From assembly GCA_003220595.1 (NCBI GenBank), contig QHSZ01000055.1:1-34680 (forward strand): 34,680 nucleotides of DNA. Reading direction: 5' to 3'. Shown here in pieces: positions 2,837 through 31,386 of the stretch (within the stretch, counting starts at the first letter, position 1; each line of letters starts with the position of its first letter). The DNA comes from Candidatus Rokuibacteriota bacterium. GTDB taxonomy: Bacteria > Methylomirabilota > Methylomirabilia > Rokubacteriales > CSP1-6. The position numbers and the translations under genes were made by a program. Under the pieces are notes generated by a model. That model was not told where the DNA came from, did not search any database, and was given only the letters and a program-made list of their open reading frames with translations.

Positions 2837-5106
2837 GCCCCTGGCCCCGCGAGCGCCGCGCGGACGCGCGCGGGCGTGATGGGGAGCTCCGTGAAGCGGA
2901 CCCCGATCGCGTGGTTCAGGGCGTTGGCCACGGCGGCCGCGACCGGGATGACGCCGGACTCGCCGAGCCCCTTGGCGCCGAACGGCCCCTCCTGGTCCAC
3001 GGTCTCGATCAGGCGCACGGCGATGTCGGGCATGTCGTCGGCCTTCAGGACCGCGTAGTCCATGAAGGACTGCGTGAGCACCTGGCCCCGCTCGACGACG
3101 AGCCGCTCGCTCAGCGCGTAGCCGAGCCCCATGTGGATCCCGCCGTGGATCTGTCCCTCGGCGGCGCCCGGGTTCAGTGCGCGCCCGACGTCGTGGGCGG
3201 AGACGAGCCTCCGGACCTCTACCTTGCCGGTCTCGGGGTCCACGTCGACGAGGGCCGCCTGGAAGGCCGACGTGTACGCGGCCGAGACGTTGCCCTGGAG
3301 GTCCTTGTCGAGCATGGCCGTCGGCGGGTCGTAGAAGGCCTCGGCGACGATCACGCGGCCGTGATGCGTGTAGTGCCCCGCGCGCGCGACCTCCTCGTAG
3401 CCGAGCCGGCGCGACGGGTTCGCCTTCACGAACACGACGCCGCGCTTGAGGTCGAGGGTCGCCGCGGGCTCGTCGAGCTCGGCCGCGGCCATCGCGAGGA
3501 GCTCGCCCTTTACCTTCTCGGCGGCGAGGCGCGCGGCGTTGCCCGCGACGAAGGTGGTCCGGCTCGCGTGGGTGCCCACGTCCCAGGGCCGGACGTTCGT
3601 GTCGGAGTTGACCACGTCGACGCGCTCGAGCGGCACGCCGAGCGTCTCCGCGACGATCATCGCCAGCACCGTCTCGGAGCCCTGGCCGATCTCCGACGCG
3701 CCCGTGATGAGCGTGACCTTGCCGAAGTCGTCGAGCTTGACGATGGCGCCGCAACCGTCCGAGCGGTAGATGCGCGCGCCCCCGCCGACGTGGAACATGC
3801 CCGCGTAGCCGATGCCGCGCGTCCAGCCGGGCCTCGGCGGCGGCACGTCGTGCCGGATCGCTGCGGCCGCCGCCTCGAGACACTCGGCCATCGCGAACGA
3901 GGTGAGCACGAACCCCTGCGGGTTCACGTCGCCCGCCTTCGATACGTTCCGCCGGCGCAGCTCGAGCCGGTCCATCCCGAGGCGCTCGGCCAGCTCGTCC
4001 ATCTGCGACTCCACGGCGAACGTGGACTCGGGGTTGCCGTAACCGCGCATCGAGCCCGAGTACGGGTTGTTGGTGTAGGCGATCGTCGTGTCGAAGCGGA
4101 CGTTCGGCACGCGGTAGAGGCCCGCGACGGTCGAGAGCATCACGTAGGGGGTCGTCGAGCCCCAGGAGGTGTAGGCGCCGTTGTCGATCGTGACGTGGGC
4201 GTCGCGCGCGAGCAGGCGCCCGTCGCGGTCCGCCGCGGTGCGCAGGCGAATCGTGCACGGCTCGCGGGTCGGGCACGCGATGAACTCCTCCACGCGGTCG
4301 AACTCGATCTTCACCGGCCGCCGGACGCGCCGGGCGAGGAGCGCCGCGATCACATCGATCGGGTAGAGGTCGAGGCCGCGGCCGAAGTTGCCGCCCACCG
4401 GCGGCTGCAGCACACGCACGCGGTCGCCCGTGATCCCGAGCGCCGCCGCGAGGTCGCGCTGATAGAGGAACGGGACCTGGGTCGTCGTCCACATCGTGAG
4501 GCCCTCGCCGCTCGCGTCCCACTCCGCGATCGCGACCATCGTCCCCAGGCACGCCGGCGTCACGAACGGCAGGCGATACGTATTCTCGACGACCGCCGCC
4601 GCCGCCGCGAACGCGCCGTCCACGTCGCCGTGGACGAACTGGTAGCGGAGCGCGTGCTGGTTGGTGCCGAGCTCCTCGTGGACCAGCGGGGCGCCCGGCG
4701 CGAGCGCCGCCGGGGGGTCGAAGACCGCCGGCAGCTCCGCGTACTCGACCTGGACGAGCTCGAGCGCCGCCTGGGCGATCTCGGGCGTCTCGGCGGCGAC
4801 CGCGGCGACCTCGTCGCGGATGCAGCGGACCTTGCCGCGCTTGAGCGCCGTCTGGTCCTTGGCGAAGCCGAACCCGATCGGCTCGACGTCGGCGCCGGTC
4901 AGGACGGCGAGCACGCCGGGCAGCGCCCGCGCCCGCGACGCGTCGACGCGCACGAGGCGCGCGTGCGGCACGCGCGCGCGGAGGATCCTCCCGTGGGCCA
5001 GACGCGGCAGCGCGAGGTCGTGGAGGTAGCGCGTGCGCCCCGTCGCCTTCTCGGCGCCGTCGCGCTTCTTGACGGTCTTGCCGATGACGTCGAACGTGTC
5101 GGGCAT
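2833..5106 (-). CDS. Xanthine dehydrogenase family, molybdopterin-binding large subunit
   Basis: A 757-residue molybdenum-cofactor subunit of the xanthine dehydrogenase/hydroxybenzoyl-CoA reductase family. Visible cofactor motifs are GGNFG (238-242), MRGYG (353-357), GQG (474-476) and the catalytic glutamate in KGLGESG (E716). The CO-dehydrogenase active-site cysteine loop (AYxCSFR) is absent, so it is not CoxL. It starts 2 bp after the mutase stop and overlaps the CoA-transferase start. Such enzymes hydroxylate or reduce a ring or acyl group and normally need an FAD subunit and a 2Fe-2S subunit. Neither is encoded beside it or elsewhere in this window, so partners must come from another locus or lie outside. 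The substrate is unknown. Confidence 0.88.
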   Translation of the reverse strand: MPDTFDVIGKTVKKRDGAEKATGRTRYLHDLALPRLAHGRILRARVPHARLVRVDASRARALPGVLAVLTGADVEPIGFGFAKDQTALKRGKVRCIRDEVAAVAAETPEIAQAALELVQVEYAELPAVFDPPAALAPGAPLVHEELGTNQHALRYQFVHGDVDGAFAAAAAVVENTYRLPFVTPACLGTMVAIAEWDASGEGLTMWTTTQVPFLYQRDLAAALGITGDRVRVLQPPVGGNFGRGLDLYPIDVIAALLARRVRRPVKIEFDRVEEFIACPTREPCTIRLRTAADRDGRLLARDAHVTIDNGAYTSWGSTTPYVMLSTVAGLYRVPNVRFDTTIAYTNNPYSGSMRGYGNPESTFAVESQMDELAERLGMDRLELRRRNVSKAGDVNPQGFVLTSFAMAECLEAAAAAIRHDVPPPRPGWTRGIGYAGMFHVGGGARIYRSDGCGAIVKLDDFGKVTLITGASEIGQGSETVLAMIVAETLGVPLERVDVVNSDTNVRPWDVGTHASRTTFVAGNAARLAAEKVKGELLAMAAAELDEPAATLDLKRGVVFVKANPSRRLGYEEVARAGHYTHHGRVIVAEAFYDPPTAMLDKDLQGNVSAAYTSAFQAALVDVDPETGKVEVRRLVSAHDVGRALNPGAAEGQIHGGIHMGLGYALSERLVVERGQVLTQSFMDYAVLKADDMPDIAVRLIETVDQEGPFGAKGLGESGVIPVAAAVANALNHAIGVRFTELPITPARVRAALAGPGA

Positions 5107-11406: not shown

Positions 11407-13133
11407 CGGCGCATCTTCTTCCGCAGCTCGTTCGTGGCCGGCCCGTCGACCCGGAGGTCGACGCCGCCGCCCGCGATCACCACCCCGTACTCGCTCCGCG
11501 CGGTCTCGATCGACACATAATCGTCCAGCACGTCCTCGAGCACACGGCCGGGCTCGCGCTCGAGCGGGTCGCCGTAGCCACCCGCGCCCGCCTGCTGGAA
11601 CGAGATGACGTCGCCGTAGGCGAACTCGCGCGACGCCTTCCCGTGCACGACCTGTTCGCCCGGTCCCGGATTGAGCACCGTCCGGCCGAGCCCGCCCGGC
11701 TTGCCGCCGAACAGCCCGTAGGGCGGGAATGTCTGGCGGTCCGAGAGATTCGTCAGCTGGCCCTCGTCGACGAGAAAGCGCATGTCGCGCCGGATGCCGC
11801 AGCCGCCGCGGAACTTCCCCGCGCCGGCGGAGTCGCGGAGCAGCTCGAACCGCTCGACGACGATCGGCTGGTTCGCCTCCTGCGCCTCCACCGGGATGTT
11901 CGCGGCGTTGAACGCCCACGCCATCGCCTCGCAGCCGTCCTTGGTCGCGCGCGCGCCCGTGCCGGAGAGCACCAGCTCGTAGGCGACGCAGCGGCGCTGC
12001 CTCGCGCGGTCCCAGCCGCCGAAGGTCGGGTTCGCCATGTGCGAGGCCGCCGCCGCGACGCGGGCGGGCACGGCCTTGGCCAGGGCACCGATGACCGACT
12101 CGAACGTCCGATAGCAGATGATCGCGCGCGGCCCCCCGCCCGCCGGCGGCCGCGGGTTCAGGAACGAGCCCTCGGGCGCTCTCACCACGATCGGTCGCAG
12201 CGCGCCCTCGTTCATCGGCCCGAACGGGTCCGTCAGGCACTTCACCGCCGCGTACGAGTACGAGCGCGTGTAGTTGATGTAGGAGTTCATCCCCGACGCG
12301 GTCTGCGGGCTCGAGCCCTCGTAGTCGATGACCATGGAGTCGTGGGCGACGGTCACGGTGACGGCCACGCGCAGGGGCTCGGTGCCCGGCCCGTAGTCGT
12401 CCAGGAAGTCCTCGAAGGTGTAGACACCGGGCGGGAACTTGGCGATCGCCCGCCGCATGTTCGCTTCCGTGCGCGCCATGATCTCCTCGGTCGCCTGCAC
12501 GAGAACATCACGGCCGTAGCGCGCCGCGAGCTCCTGGAGCCGGCGCTCGCCCACGCGGAGCGCGCTCCGCTGCGCCCGCAGATCACCGAGGACTTTCTCC
12601 GGCGTCCGCGTGTTGGCCGCGATGATCCCGACGATGCCGGGCTCCTCCTCGTACTCCCGCCAGACCTTGGTCGGCGGGATGCGGAGGCCCTCCTGGAAGT
12701 AGTCGAAGATGCCCTCCACGCCCTGGCTACCCGGGCGCTGTCCGCCGACGTCGGTGTGGTGGAGGATGTTGACGGCGAAGCCGACGAGCGCGCCCTCGTG
12801 GAACACGGGCTGCGTGACGAAGAAATCGGGGAGATGGCCGGAGCCGAGCAGCGGGTCGTTCAGCAAGATCGCGTCGCCCGGCCGGAGCGTCTCGACGGGA
12901 TGCGCCGTGAGCGCGTTCTTCACGGCGAACGACATCGCGCCCATGTGGCCCGGGGAGTAAGGCCCCTGCGCCACCATGCGCCCCTTCGCGTCGAAGACCG
13001 CGACGGAGAAGTCCTGCCCCTCGCGCGCCTGCTCGGAGTACGCCGTCTTGTGGACGGTCGTGCCGATCTCGACCGCGATGGACTGGAGCGCGCCCCAGAT
13101 GACGCCGAGGGTGATCGGGTCGACTCGGCTCAT
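11403..13133 (-). CDS. hyuB: Hydantoinase B/oxoprolinase family subunit
   Basis: A 576-residue HyuB-type subunit, beginning MSRVDPITLGVIWGALQSI, the standard family N-terminus. Conserved segments include FSVAVFDAKGRMVAQG, GDAILLNDPLLGSGHLPD and a C-terminal glycine-rich GAGGYGDP. With HyuA it forms ATP-dependent amidohydrolases (N-methylhydantoinase, 5-oxoprolinase, caprolactamase) or, in related complexes, acetone-type carboxylases. The length fits the family. The ATG at 13133 overlaps the stop of a repeat-encoded mini-ORF that itself chains back to hyuA. The substrate cannot be read, but the downstream acyl-CoA genes favour a lactam or cyclic imide whose opened product becomes a CoA ester. 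Confidence 0.92.
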   Translation of the reverse strand: MSRVDPITLGVIWGALQSIAVEIGTTVHKTAYSEQAREGQDFSVAVFDAKGRMVAQGPYSPGHMGAMSFAVKNALTAHPVETLRPGDAILLNDPLLGSGHLPDFFVTQPVFHEGALVGFAVNILHHTDVGGQRPGSQGVEGIFDYFQEGLRIPPTKVWREYEEEPGIVGIIAANTRTPEKVLGDLRAQRSALRVGERRLQELAARYGRDVLVQATEEIMARTEANMRRAIAKFPPGVYTFEDFLDDYGPGTEPLRVAVTVTVAHDSMVIDYEGSSPQTASGMNSYINYTRSYSYAAVKCLTDPFGPMNEGALRPIVVRAPEGSFLNPRPPAGGGPRAIICYRTFESVIGALAKAVPARVAAAASHMANPTFGGWDRARQRRCVAYELVLSGTGARATKDGCEAMAWAFNAANIPVEAQEANQPIVVERFELLRDSAGAGKFRGGCGIRRDMRFLVDEGQLTNLSDRQTFPPYGLFGGKPGGLGRTVLNPGPGEQVVHGKASREFAYGDVISFQQAGAGGYGDPLEREPGRVLEDVLDDYVSIETARSEYGVVIAGGGVDLRVDGPATNELRKKMRR

Positions 13134-21726: not shown

Positions 21727-22020
21727 CTAGGGGCGGGCGCGTCGACCCGGCAGGGAGCGTGGCTCGTAGTGCAGGTCGCCCGGCGGGCACGGGTTCCGCA
21801 CCGTGAGGGTCACGGCCGGCGGCTCGGTCGCGCGGGGCGGCGGGCCCGAGTCGCGCAGCGACTCGTCGAGCGCCGTCGAGGCGCTCGGGGCGCTCGGCTG
21901 CGTCATGATGTTGAGGAGCATCGCCGCGTTGATCGGCGCCTTCGCCTCCTCGGCGAGGACGGCCGGCGCCCACGCGGCGAGCCCGAGCAGAGTCAGGGTA
22001 GACACGAGCTCCCTACGCAT
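21727..22020 (-). CDS. Small secreted protein, unknown function
   Basis: A 97-residue protein with a clear signal peptide: basic start MRRE, a hydrophobic core of about 15 residues, and a probable cleavage after AVLA at residue 23. The mature part is proline- and alanine-rich with low complexity (PSAPSAS, GPPPRATEPP) and no recognised domain. It is co-directional with apt and the hydroxybutyryl-CoA dehydrogenase, 25 bp from each. It is probably a real gene given the signal peptide and spacing, but no function can be assigned. Confidence 0.6.
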   Translation of the reverse strand: MRRELVSTLTLLGLAAWAPAVLAEEAKAPINAAMLLNIMTQPSAPSASTALDESLRDSGPPPRATEPPAVTLTVRNPCPPGDLHYEPRSLPGRRARP

Positions 22021-22045: not shown

Positions 22046-22570
22046 TCAGTCGTAGACGATCAGGGAATGCAGCGGATAGTTCTTGAGCTTGTCGCGCCCG
22101 TGAAGGAACGCCAGCTCGATCATGAACGCGACGCCGACGACGCGGCCGCCGAGTTGCTCGACGAGGCGGAGGGTCGCGGCCATCGTGCCTCCCGTCGCCA
22201 GCAAGTCGTCGACGGCGAGCACCCGCTGACCCGTCACGATCGCGTCCTCGTGGACGGCGAGCGCGTCCCGGCCGTACTCGAGCTCGTACTCCACCTCGAC
22301 CGTCTTCCCCGGCAGCTTGCCGAGCTTCCGCACCGGCACGAAGCCGGCGTGGAGCTGATGGGCGAGCGCGCCGCCGAGGATGAAGCCGCGCGACTCGACG
22401 CCGACGACGACCTCCACACGCTCTCTGCGGTAGCGCTCGGAGAGCAGATCGACGACGCGACGGAACGCGGGGCCATCTTTAAGGAGGGTCGTGATGTCCT
22501 TGAAGAGGATGCCTTCGGTGGGGAAGTCCTTGATCTCGCGGATCTTCGCCCTGAGGTCGGCCACGTCCAT
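22046..22570 (-). CDS. apt: Adenine phosphoribosyltransferase
   Basis: A 174-residue type I phosphoribosyltransferase that salvages adenine to AMP using PRPP. The PRPP loop is VLAVDDLLATGGTM (about 118-130), and ESRGFILGGALA and RKLGKLPG match adenine-specific enzymes. The N-terminus has the expected IREIKDFPTEGILFKDITTLL. The length is normal. Upstream on the minus strand, TTGCGC and TAGTAT spaced by 18 bp could form a promoter that would give an almost leaderless transcript. Confidence 0.96.
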   Translation of the reverse strand: MDVADLRAKIREIKDFPTEGILFKDITTLLKDGPAFRRVVDLLSERYRRERVEVVVGVESRGFILGGALAHQLHAGFVPVRKLGKLPGKTVEVEYELEYGRDALAVHEDAIVTGQRVLAVDDLLATGGTMAATLRLVEQLGGRVVGVAFMIELAFLHGRDKLKNYPLHSLIVYD

Positions 22571-22623
22571 CGCGCGCTTATACTACCGACTCGTTGCCGC
22601 ACCGCGCAAGACGGCTCGCACGC

Positions 22624-22640
22624 ACGGTCAAAGTGACCGT
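22624..22640. promoter_or_regulatory. 17-bp perfect inverted repeat, possible activator site
   Basis: ACGGTCA-AAG-TGACCGT is a perfect 7-3-7 inverted repeat in the 237-bp gap between apt and the plus-strand orphan gene. It lies about 115 bp upstream of the sigma-54-like promoter at 22746, a normal distance for an enhancer-binding protein site, and 54 bp upstream of the apt start on the other strand. There is no T-run, so it is not a terminator. Nothing else gene-like is seen in this gap. Confidence 0.45.
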
Positions 22641-22745
22641 CGCCGTGGCACGTTGGCACCCTCCGGGCGCGACGACGGGCGCGGATGAGCGTCAACTGAT
22701 CGCAACTGCTCGATTTCATGGGCGCGCTTGCGACGACGCGCCGCG

Positions 22746-22761
22746 TGGCACCTGAGTTGCT
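22746..22761 (+). promoter_or_regulatory. Sigma-54 (RpoN) type -24/-12 promoter
   Basis: TGGCAC-N5-TTGCT matches the sigma-54 consensus in full, with the invariant GG at 22747-22748 and GC at 22759-22760 correctly spaced. Transcription would start near 22771, about 37 bases before the ATG of the orphan gene at 22808. A perfect match of this kind is unlikely by chance in a window of this size, and its position directly ahead of a gene supports it. Confidence 0.65.
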
Positions 22762-22807
22762 GCAAAGACTGTAAGGGTCGCGCCGTCAGGAGGCCTCCGA
22801 GAAAAAC

Positions 22808-23176
22808 ATGTTGCTTCCGGAGCAGGTGCAGCGGCTGTTTCAACTCGCCTTGGTCGAGTTCGCGCCGGACTGGGAGATCGCCGGCGCGATCACCGAGCTC
22901 TCGTTGAACAACGCCGAGCACTGGGTATCCGGACTCGGAACCTTCGGACTGATTCTGAGAAATCGCCAGACGAGCGGCGTCAAGGTCCTCGGCTGGCGGA
23001 CCGGCCGGATCCAGAGCGCGACCTACTTCCGGGGCATCTCCTATCGCGTCCTCGAGGCGTACGCCGATCGCATCACCGATCCGATCCGGCGCTACTTCGA
23101 GGAGATCGGCATCCTGTTGCCACAGGACGCCCCGGCGTGGTCGCCCAAGTCCCCCGAGCGATCCCACACCCGCTAA
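22808..23176 (+). CDS. Hypothetical protein behind a sigma-54-like promoter
   Basis: A 122-residue soluble protein I do not recognise. The central part (about 35-95) looks like a folded domain with alternating strands and helices (SGLGTFGLILRNRQ, GISYRVLEAYADRI). There is no signal peptide or membrane helix. An AGGAGG lies 14 bases before the ATG, farther than ideal, and is part of a GGAGGCCTCC palindrome. Its third codon positions are less GC-rich than those of neighbouring genes, so recent transfer or a distinct expression class is possible. It is flanked by a full-consensus -24/-12 promoter and a downstream hairpin, so it looks like a self-contained transcription unit. Confidence 0.65.
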   Translation: MLLPEQVQRLFQLALVEFAPDWEIAGAITELSLNNAEHWVSGLGTFGLILRNRQTSGVKVLGWRTGRIQSATYFRGISYRVLEAYADRITDPIRRYFEEIGILLPQDAPAWSPKSPERSHTR

Positions 23177-23187
23177 GCGTAGCTCCC

Positions 23188-23215
23188 TGACGCCGCCGCA
23201 CCCGCGGCGGCGTCA
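23188..23215. terminator. Strong GC hairpin between convergent genes
   Basis: A perfect 12-bp inverted repeat (TGACGCCGCCGC / GCGGCGGCGTCA) with a 4-base loop. It starts 12 bp after the stop of the plus-strand orphan gene, and its right edge contains the stop codon of the minus-strand HAD gene. It sits exactly where two convergent units end, so it probably terminates both. There is no T-tract on either side, so termination may be Rho-assisted or the hairpin may act mainly to protect 3' ends. Confidence 0.7.
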
Positions 23216-23962
23216 GGACTCAAGCCGCTCGATGGCCGCCGGCAAGGCGGCGAGACGCGGAATCACGTCGTCGGGGCGCTGGGCGCCGAGCCGCGCGGGC
23301 GAGAGACTCGTCACCTGGATCGATCGCATCCCGGCCCGATGCGCGCCATGCACGTCGAGGATCTCGTCGTCGCCCACGTGCACGGCGGCGGCGGGCTCGC
23401 CGCCGACGGCCCTCAACGTGAGCGCGAAGATCTCCGGATCGGGCTTGCGCACTCCCACCTCGTCGGAAAACGTCGTGTGCGTGAAGCAGCCGAGGAGCTG
23501 GTACCGCTCGAGGAGCTTGCGCAGCGTCGCGCCGGGCGTGCGCATGATATTGGACACGAGCGCCAGCGTGTAGCCGCGCGCGGCCAGCGTCTTGAGCGCG
23601 CCGAGCGCGCCGTCGTCGACGGCCGGCGGGACGAGCAGCGCGGGTCGCGCGTAGGCGTCCACCAGCATCGTCATGACCTCCGCGGTCACGCGCCGGGGCA
23701 ACCCGGCGTCGAGCGCCGCGAGGATCGCGCGGACATGCTCCTCGACGGGCACGTCGCGGTACTGGCTCCAAAGGCGCGCGAGGTACGCGCCCGACTCCTC
23801 GTACGCCCGATCGAGGGCAACCGCCGTCACGCGCGCGCCGACGGCCGAGGTCAGGATCGTGTTGAAGTCGGCCATGCGGCGCTTCTTGTAGCGGTTGTCG
23901 CTGCCGGGGCCGTCCAGGAGGAGCGTGCCCCACAGGTCGAGCGTGACCGTGCGGATCTTCAG
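23213..23962 (-). CDS. HAD family hydrolase with probable CTG start
   Basis: A HAD-superfamily phosphatase/dehalogenase. Motif I (TLDLWGTLL, nucleophile D9) is only reached if translation begins at the CTG at 23962, which overlaps the stop of the enoyl-CoA hydratase gene (CTGA). The first ATG, at 23875, would delete motif I and give a dead protein. Motif II (LVSN), motif III Lys (VRKPDPEIF) and motif IV (VGDDEILD) are all present, giving a complete 249-residue enzyme. The second motif-I Asp is Trp, as in some haloacid dehalogenase and nucleotidase relatives. It is the last gene of the operon. Substrate unknown. Confidence 0.82.
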   Translation of the reverse strand: MKIRTVTLDLWGTLLLDGPGSDNRYKKRRMADFNTILTSAVGARVTAVALDRAYEESGAYLARLWSQYRDVPVEEHVRAILAALDAGLPRRVTAEVMTMLVDAYARPALLVPPAVDDGALGALKTLAARGYTLALVSNIMRTPGATLRKLLERYQLLGCFTHTTFSDEVGVRKPDPEIFALTLRAVGGEPAAAVHVGDDEILDVHGAHRAGMRSIQVTSLSPARLGAQRPDDVIPRLAALPAAIERLES

Positions 23963-30905: not shown

Positions 30906-31386
30906 ACACGAAGCGCCCGCGCGCGGTGGCGAGCACCGCCGCGGTGGCGAGATCCTCGATCCGTCCCTCGACGTCCGCGTAGCGCTCGCGGTCGGCGACG
31001 AGCTGCGCGCGACCGGCGAGCGGGGTCGCGAGCGGCACCGGCCTCACATAGCGTACGGTCAGCTCGCCCGTGACGGCGAGCCGGCCCGTCGCGCGGACGA
31101 CCGCCCCCGCCAGCACCTCGTCGAGATACGCCGCCACGATCCCGCCGTGAGCCGCCCCGGGTGGGCCCTCGTAACGGCGGTCGATCAGGATCGGCGAGAC
31201 GACGCCGCCTTCCACCTTGAAGCACCGCACGCGCAGGCCGCTCGGGTGCGCCTGGCCGCAGCCGAAACAGCCCGCATAGACGTCGCCCGCGCGCGCGGCG
31301 GGGCACTGCTCCTCGAGCCCGGCGAAGCGCTCGCGGAAGACCTCGGGCAGCGGCTCGGGCACGAGCATCGCGCTGCAGTCTATCAT
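30892..31386 (-). CDS. Hotdog-fold thioesterase (PaaI/4HBT type)
   Basis: A 164-residue acyl-CoA thioesterase-like protein. An N-terminal CFGCGQAHPSGLRV motif is typical of this subgroup, followed by the hotdog core with AHGGIVAAYLDEVLAG, where H80, G81, G82 and D89 correspond to the catalytic helix region of 4HBT enzymes. The start at 31386 is the first ATG and lacks a good ribosome site; ATG at the LVPEPL segment a few codons later is an alternative. It is transcribed alone, convergent with the transglycosylase gene. Confidence 0.85.
   Translation of the reverse strand: MIDCSAMLVPEPLPEVFRERFAGLEEQCPAARAGDVYAGCFGCGQAHPSGLRVRCFKVEGGVVSPILIDRRYEGPPGAAHGGIVAAYLDEVLAGAVVRATGRLAVTGELTVRYVRPVPLATPLAGRAQLVADRERYADVEGRIEDLATAAVLATARGRFVFMRG

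Follow-up and report, generated by a model that had tools for sequence, protein, structure and literature searches.

What does an unnamed gene for a 122-residue protein do behind a sigma-54 promoter in Candidatus Rokuibacteriota, and is the combination of gene and promoter real or a coincidence of sequence? The window analysed here is 34,680 nucleotides long and comprises the whole of contig C231 of genome G000, a 4.06-Mb draft that is 98.5% complete. Because the small protein stands behind a tightly conserved sigma-54 promoter, our comparisons indicate that it belongs to a genuine regulated gene family that has as yet no name and that lies behind a switch of a familiar kind.

The gene, its family and its neighbours

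The gene occupies positions 22808-23176 of the forward strand, from its ATG through the stop codon. Its reading frame, its relatives and a dN/dS of 0.15-0.19, calculated over 103 codons against six orthologues, indicate a real gene under purifying selection. The sequence AGGAGG at 22788-22793 (+), 14 nt ahead of the ATG, could serve as a ribosome-binding site, and GAGGAGG-like sequences stand nearer the ATG in many orthologues of the upstream alignment.

The earlier note on this DNA had called the gene an orphan, a description that can no longer be kept. A search with the single sequence found relatives in 25 of 99 genomes, and a profile search of 95 genomes from the phylum found them in 25, all among the 57 genomes of the bacterium's own family and none among the 38 outside it. 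Public contigs carrying close relatives are assigned to Candidatus Rokubacteria or Rokuibacteriota at 18 of 18 loci. The protein family appears, as far as searched, to be confined to one family of Rokubacteria. A mobile-element origin was rejected, since the search of plasmids, phages and viral contigs turned up no relative.

Two forms of the gene can be distinguished, a short one (26 loci) and a long one (nine loci), whose open reading frames span about 204-325 residues. Long forms are 30-39% identical to the 122-residue query over the domain, one locus having only part of it. Short genes stand between apt and a HAD-type gene. In the window both neighbours were named from sequence: apt (adenine phosphoribosyltransferase) is divergent at 22046-22570 (-), and the HAD-type hydrolase is convergent at 23213-23875 (-). 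A pattern search recovered the HAD motif at all 26 short-gene loci and, at 20 of them, the start of apt; the missing cases reflect the apt pattern or short contigs, and several of them show the apt start region in the upstream alignment. Beyond apt lies a 97-residue secreted-looking reading frame (21727-22020, -), and similar frames adjoin apt in loci L021-L024.

A strong hairpin had been reported after the gene, and it held up on folding. Its perfect 14-bp stem lies between the convergent genes at 23186-23217 (arms 23186-23199 and 23204-23217), has no T-run, and gives the region 23170-23240 a folding energy of -40.9 kcal/mol (z -4.7). By eye, it recurs only in a relative from the same genus (L003).

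The sigma-54 promoter

The -24/-12 element of the window, TGGCACCTGAGTTGCT (TGGCAC and TTGCT separated by CTGAG), lies at 22746-22761 (+), exactly where a full-consensus site had been claimed. TGGCAC-N5-TTGCT occurs once in the window and a mean of 0.00 times in 100 dinucleotide shuffles. The GG-N10-GC core is embedded in TGGCAC-N5-TTGCW, and the element lies in non-coding DNA ahead of the gene. At sigma-54 promoters transcription usually begins about 12 nt downstream of the GC in the -12 element, which places the predicted start at 22772 (+). The ATG begins 46 nt past the -12 element, and such a start would give a leader of about 36 nt, in agreement with the 37 bp by which the promoter had been said to precede the gene.

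Further support comes from the orthologues. At 21 of the 26 short-gene loci a -24/-12 site ends 16-46 nt before the ATG, and these sites comprise 17 exact copies of TGGCACN5TTGCT, two with TGGCAT and two with TTGCG. Four further loci (L021-L024) have the gene in second place in an apparent operon, and in all four an exact sigma-54 site precedes the first gene. Taken together, 25 of the 26 short-gene loci therefore have a site ahead of the gene or, where there is one, of its two-gene operon. At the exception, L020 (G038:C73, about 1490-1505), the promoter and the first 18 or so codons are absent together and the palindrome and AT patch described below are intact; the gap may be a natural deletion or an assembly fault. 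On this comparative evidence the element is strongly supported as the promoter of the 122-residue gene. The operon loci carry 48-56% identical orthologues, and the extra small first gene of the operon has no family match. In three of them (L021 1168-1476, L023 1109-1483, L024 1149-1490) a short secreted-looking protein that ends in a hydrophobic segment and RR lies downstream.

The long loci show a looser version of the arrangement. Seven of nine have a GG-N10-GC site that resembles TGGCAY-N5-TTGCT with one mismatch; six of these sites precede a BON-type gene, and the seventh, at the locus seen as L031 and L127, precedes an apparent remnant. Pfam confirmed the BON domain for L121 only, and we call the other partners BON-type. 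A contig end cuts locus L124, whereas L119, the long paralogue of the window's own genome, has neither a clear sigma-54 site nor a BON partner. In L127, at about 3109-3300 (the same place as L031), the BON-type gene seems to have shrunk to a signal-peptide remnant while the sigma-54-like site was kept.

The genome has the machinery to use such a promoter. The check proposed with the earlier note, for rpoN and enhancer-binding proteins, found both in G000: rpoN matches PF04552 with an E value of 5.0e-61, and there are 22 matches to the activator domain PF00158, 18 of which score at least 150 bits. Sites of the form TGGCAYN5TTGCW number 11 in G000 against 0 for a reversed control, and TGGCACN5TTGCT occurs 54 times in five relatives against 8 for its reversed control. 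The idea of a small, conditionally expressed sigma-54 unit is well supported by these sequence data, namely by rpoN, the 18 strong activators and the site at 25 of 26 short-gene loci.

Upstream elements and the apt control

A sigma-54 promoter of this kind would need an activator site, and a perfect 7-3-7 inverted repeat upstream had been put forward as one. The repeat, ACGGTCA-AAG-TGACCGT, does exist at 22624-22640, but we rejected it as the activator site, since it is at chance level and its palindrome is not kept in orthologues. When the intergenic region 22571-22807 was dinucleotide-shuffled 1000 times, 287 of the shuffles contained a perfect repeat with arms of 7 and a loop of at most 10, and the window averages 0.82 perfect arm-7 repeats per 237 bp. 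Orthologues retain only its right half, the conserved block CAAAGTGnCCG (22629-22639, +, in the upstream alignment). The proposed scan for further copies found two with two mismatches (12349-12365 and 31055-31071); within that limit ACGGTCA-N3-TGACCGT has three matches in the window against 0.09 expected from shuffles.

A better-conserved candidate starts five bases after the repeat. This putative activator site, GTGGCACGTTGGCAC at 22645-22659 (+), departs by one mismatch from the palindrome GTGnCACnGTGnCAC, which itself or in a near form is found at -101 to -116 from TGGCAC in most main-clade orthologues. Over 28 promoters, a set that omits L020 and L031 (no promoter left; L031 was later counted as L127), the mean best mismatch to the palindrome is 2.29, compared with 4.32 (sd 0.14) in mononucleotide shuffles. 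The strict form GTGRCACNGTGRCAC occurs three times in 55 family genomes, each time ahead of a member of the gene family. Its reversed control gives at least three scattered matches in the same genomes, so it is the location of the strict form, not its number, that matters.

Of 32 family promoters (L119, with no site, and L124, with its cut contig, being omitted), 14 have the core of the candidate site, TGSCA-N3-TGACM, exactly and 22 have it with at most one mismatch; the corresponding figures are 3 and 9 for 38 other sigma-54 sites, and 0.07% and 2% for shuffles. These counts are partly circular because the core was defined after the short, long and L054 promoters had been viewed, and all motif p-values are too small because the sequences are related. 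Ten of 25 short-gene promoters miss the core by two or more. Other sites with less than 150 bp upstream were excluded, and duplicates seen through two loci were counted once. The nine other core-bearing sites are at L051, L054 (in both directions), L060, L273, L274, L276, L283 and L292; L054 informed the core and the remaining ones did not. Their presence suggests a wider regulon.

Between the candidate activator site and the promoter is an AT patch, GATTT at 22712-22716 (+), 34 bp ahead of the -24 element. Patches of the form [GA][AT]TTT stand at a near-fixed distance of about 31-35 bp in 24 of 32 family promoters but at only 4 of 38 other sigma-54 sites, for which reason we rejected the idea that sigma-54 promoters in these genomes have it in general. 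By eye it bears a loose resemblance to the IHF consensus, and we do not claim it as an IHF-type site. The GG-N10-GC element, a palindrome about 100-116 bp upstream and the presence of rpoN and activators are all shared with classical sigma-54/NtrC-type units; the near-fixed AT patch sets the present promoters apart from them.

The spacer is common to apt, and the likely apt core promoter, read from conserved blocks at 22578-22609 (-), comprises a -10-like block at 22578-22586 and a -35-like block at 22604-22609, some 15-40 bp from the palindrome. It could therefore be argued that the upstream elements regulate apt and that the -24/-12 match is a fortuitous one in a GC-rich spacer. Genomes that keep apt and have no 122-residue gene provide a control. 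We searched 27 of the 32 own-family genomes without the gene and obtained 23 usable apt loci. Up to 450 bp upstream of apt, with one mismatch allowed, none of the 23 has a sigma-54 site, though most retain the apt -10-like block. TGSCA-N3-TGACM within one mismatch is likewise absent from all 23, whereas 15 of 25 short-gene promoters have it. The sigma-54 site therefore belongs to the 122-residue gene and not to the divergent apt, and the association holds in the operons as well, where the gene takes second place. We regard regulation of apt by these elements as extremely improbable. The locus is thus a clean comparative case, with promoter and palindrome present where the gene is present and absent from the same apt site where it is not. 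As the likely -10 block is only about 8 bp ahead of the apt start codon in our sequence reading, the apt mRNA may be leaderless.

To ask which activator would bind the palindrome, we compared 139 activator proteins by reciprocal best match. They came from nine genomes: 18 are those of G000, and the others belong to eight relatives, of which four have the gene and four lack it. The set was drawn from among the matches listed (9 of 11 matches for G001, four loci of 37 for G010), and one of 138 loci, L185, yielded no protein. No activator among the 139 proteins compared was restricted to gene-bearing genomes. No dedicated activator emerges, because the widely kept ones occur in gene-bearing and gene-less genomes, and the simplest reading of these sequences is that an older, conserved activator was recruited to the promoter.

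The protein and its possible role

Profile searches and structure prediction leave the product as unrecognised as the earlier note had found it, with no curated family and no convincing fold match. The 122-residue protein (P0001) has no family in Pfam, NCBIfam, PHROGs or PADLOC, with no match up to E 10 in the first two, and weak matches elsewhere were read as noise. A defence system reading was rejected in the absence of any PADLOC match. An AlphaFold2 model from 18 sequences (pLDDT 83.7, pTM 0.75) has a helix at residues 4-18, strands at 22-24, 45-52, 58-61 and 71-74, and helices at 79-86 and 91-99, and is of low confidence at residues 107-122. The protein is accordingly modelled as about 105 ordered residues, forming a helix, a small beta-sheet and two helices, followed by a variable tail. 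Residues L15, E17, P20, W22, W39, R53, L61, G62, R64, A71, Y85, P92, Y96 and G101 are invariant over 16 diverse members. Foldseek returned no match to the model at E <= 0.001, and the best VIA match (Z 3.7, 88 residues aligned, rmsd 4.6) is too weak to show either a shared or a new fold. By eye we see neither a signal nor a membrane segment, and the protein is thus probably cytosolic.

We consider it fairly probable that the gene is a one-gene sigma-54 unit with its activator at 22645-22659, and that its product is a cytosolic accessory or adaptor protein in an envelope or exopolysaccharide response. Sigma-54 RNA polymerase would wait at 22746-22761 until an NtrC-type activator bound at the palindromic site was brought to it by DNA looping, perhaps aided by bending at the AT patch (22712-22716), and the gene at 22808-23176 would then be transcribed with its short leader. 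We infer a role in an envelope response from two observations: longer paralogues accompany a BON-domain gene downstream of sigma-54-like sites, and further sigma-54 promoters, some of which precede envelope-type genes, share the core site. The link thus rests on the neighbours of the paralogues and a few other promoters. Other sigma-54 sites precede a bacterial sugar transferase at L056 (PF02397) and genes recognised by eye as LpxC, a lytic transglycosylase (its domain match is below the cut-off) and a type IV pilin; many more precede unrelated or unplaced genes. The long paralogues, which follow a BON-domain gene that has a sigma-54-like site ahead of it, resemble BON-domain operons, presumably of the OsmY-like kind, whereas no such partner accompanies the short gene in the window.

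Alternatively, the protein could itself be a regulator, for example an anti-activator or a small protein that binds DNA or RNA, and exert feedback on the sigma-54 regulon. Its small size, probable cytosolic location, many conserved arginines and nearly invariant C-terminal helix pair would suit such a function, but it belongs to no known DNA-binding family, has no fold match at VIA Z >= 5, and nothing positive supports the role, so that we think this rather unlikely. A broader version of the accessory-protein reading, which we offer only tentatively, is that the locus represents a new small-protein module of Rokubacteria with a sigma-54 architecture of its own (palindrome, AT patch and -24/-12 element). 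The module would belong to an undescribed activator regulon that includes the BON-linked paralogues, the GAF locus L054/L276 and envelope genes, and its product would be a cytosolic effector, possibly of undescribed fold. At that GAF locus (L054/L055, G000:C190:427-712, and L276 of G014) two divergent genes each have their own sigma-54 site, with a site of the TGSCA-N3-TGACM type between them; one product has a weak GAF-domain match and the other is of no recognised family.

Among the layouts considered, the nearest described one is the PEP-CTERM/PrsK-PrsR regulon of Proteobacteria, in which single genes stand behind sigma-54 promoters with an upstream site and a long spacer (PMC1569441; the system is also treated in PMC9850573). 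The shared promoter class with its upstream site, and the short proteins downstream in L021, L023 and L024 that look PEP-CTERM-like by eye, might place the gene in a PEP-CTERM/exosortase regulon under PrsK/PrsR. A library scan, however, found no such family in those loci, exosortase (PF09721) is absent from G000, and the 27 of 55 family genomes that have one show no visible link with the gene. The best activator score for PrsR (TIGR02915) is 437.4 bits, below the cut-off of 502.6, and the 122-residue protein has no PEP-CTERM family match in Pfam or NCBIfam. The upstream motif also differs, TTTACA, the end of motif 1, being absent from 22571-22807. Membership was rejected for want of an exosortase, a PrsR above cut-off and a PEP-CTERM domain, and we rate it as very unlikely.

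In a 2025 comparison of sigma-54 regulons (PMC12316311) a term search found no mention of Methylomirabil or Rokubacter. Rokubacteria together with sigma-54 or RpoN were not found in the literature searched, and sigma-54 control in these uncultivated bacteria therefore seems little studied. For tests in a laboratory host, the present locus offers a defined protein family and a candidate motif for the activator.

A consensus sigma-54 site also lies 16 nt ahead of an lpxC-like gene in two genera (L058/L120, G000:C268:48-63, and L278 of G018). To our knowledge, sigma-54 control of lipid A synthesis would be unusual. At L120 the site and the lpxC-like gene are followed by a small reading frame and an NtrY/NtrX-like kinase-activator pair, the activator of which is also the best, sub-cut-off match to PrsR.
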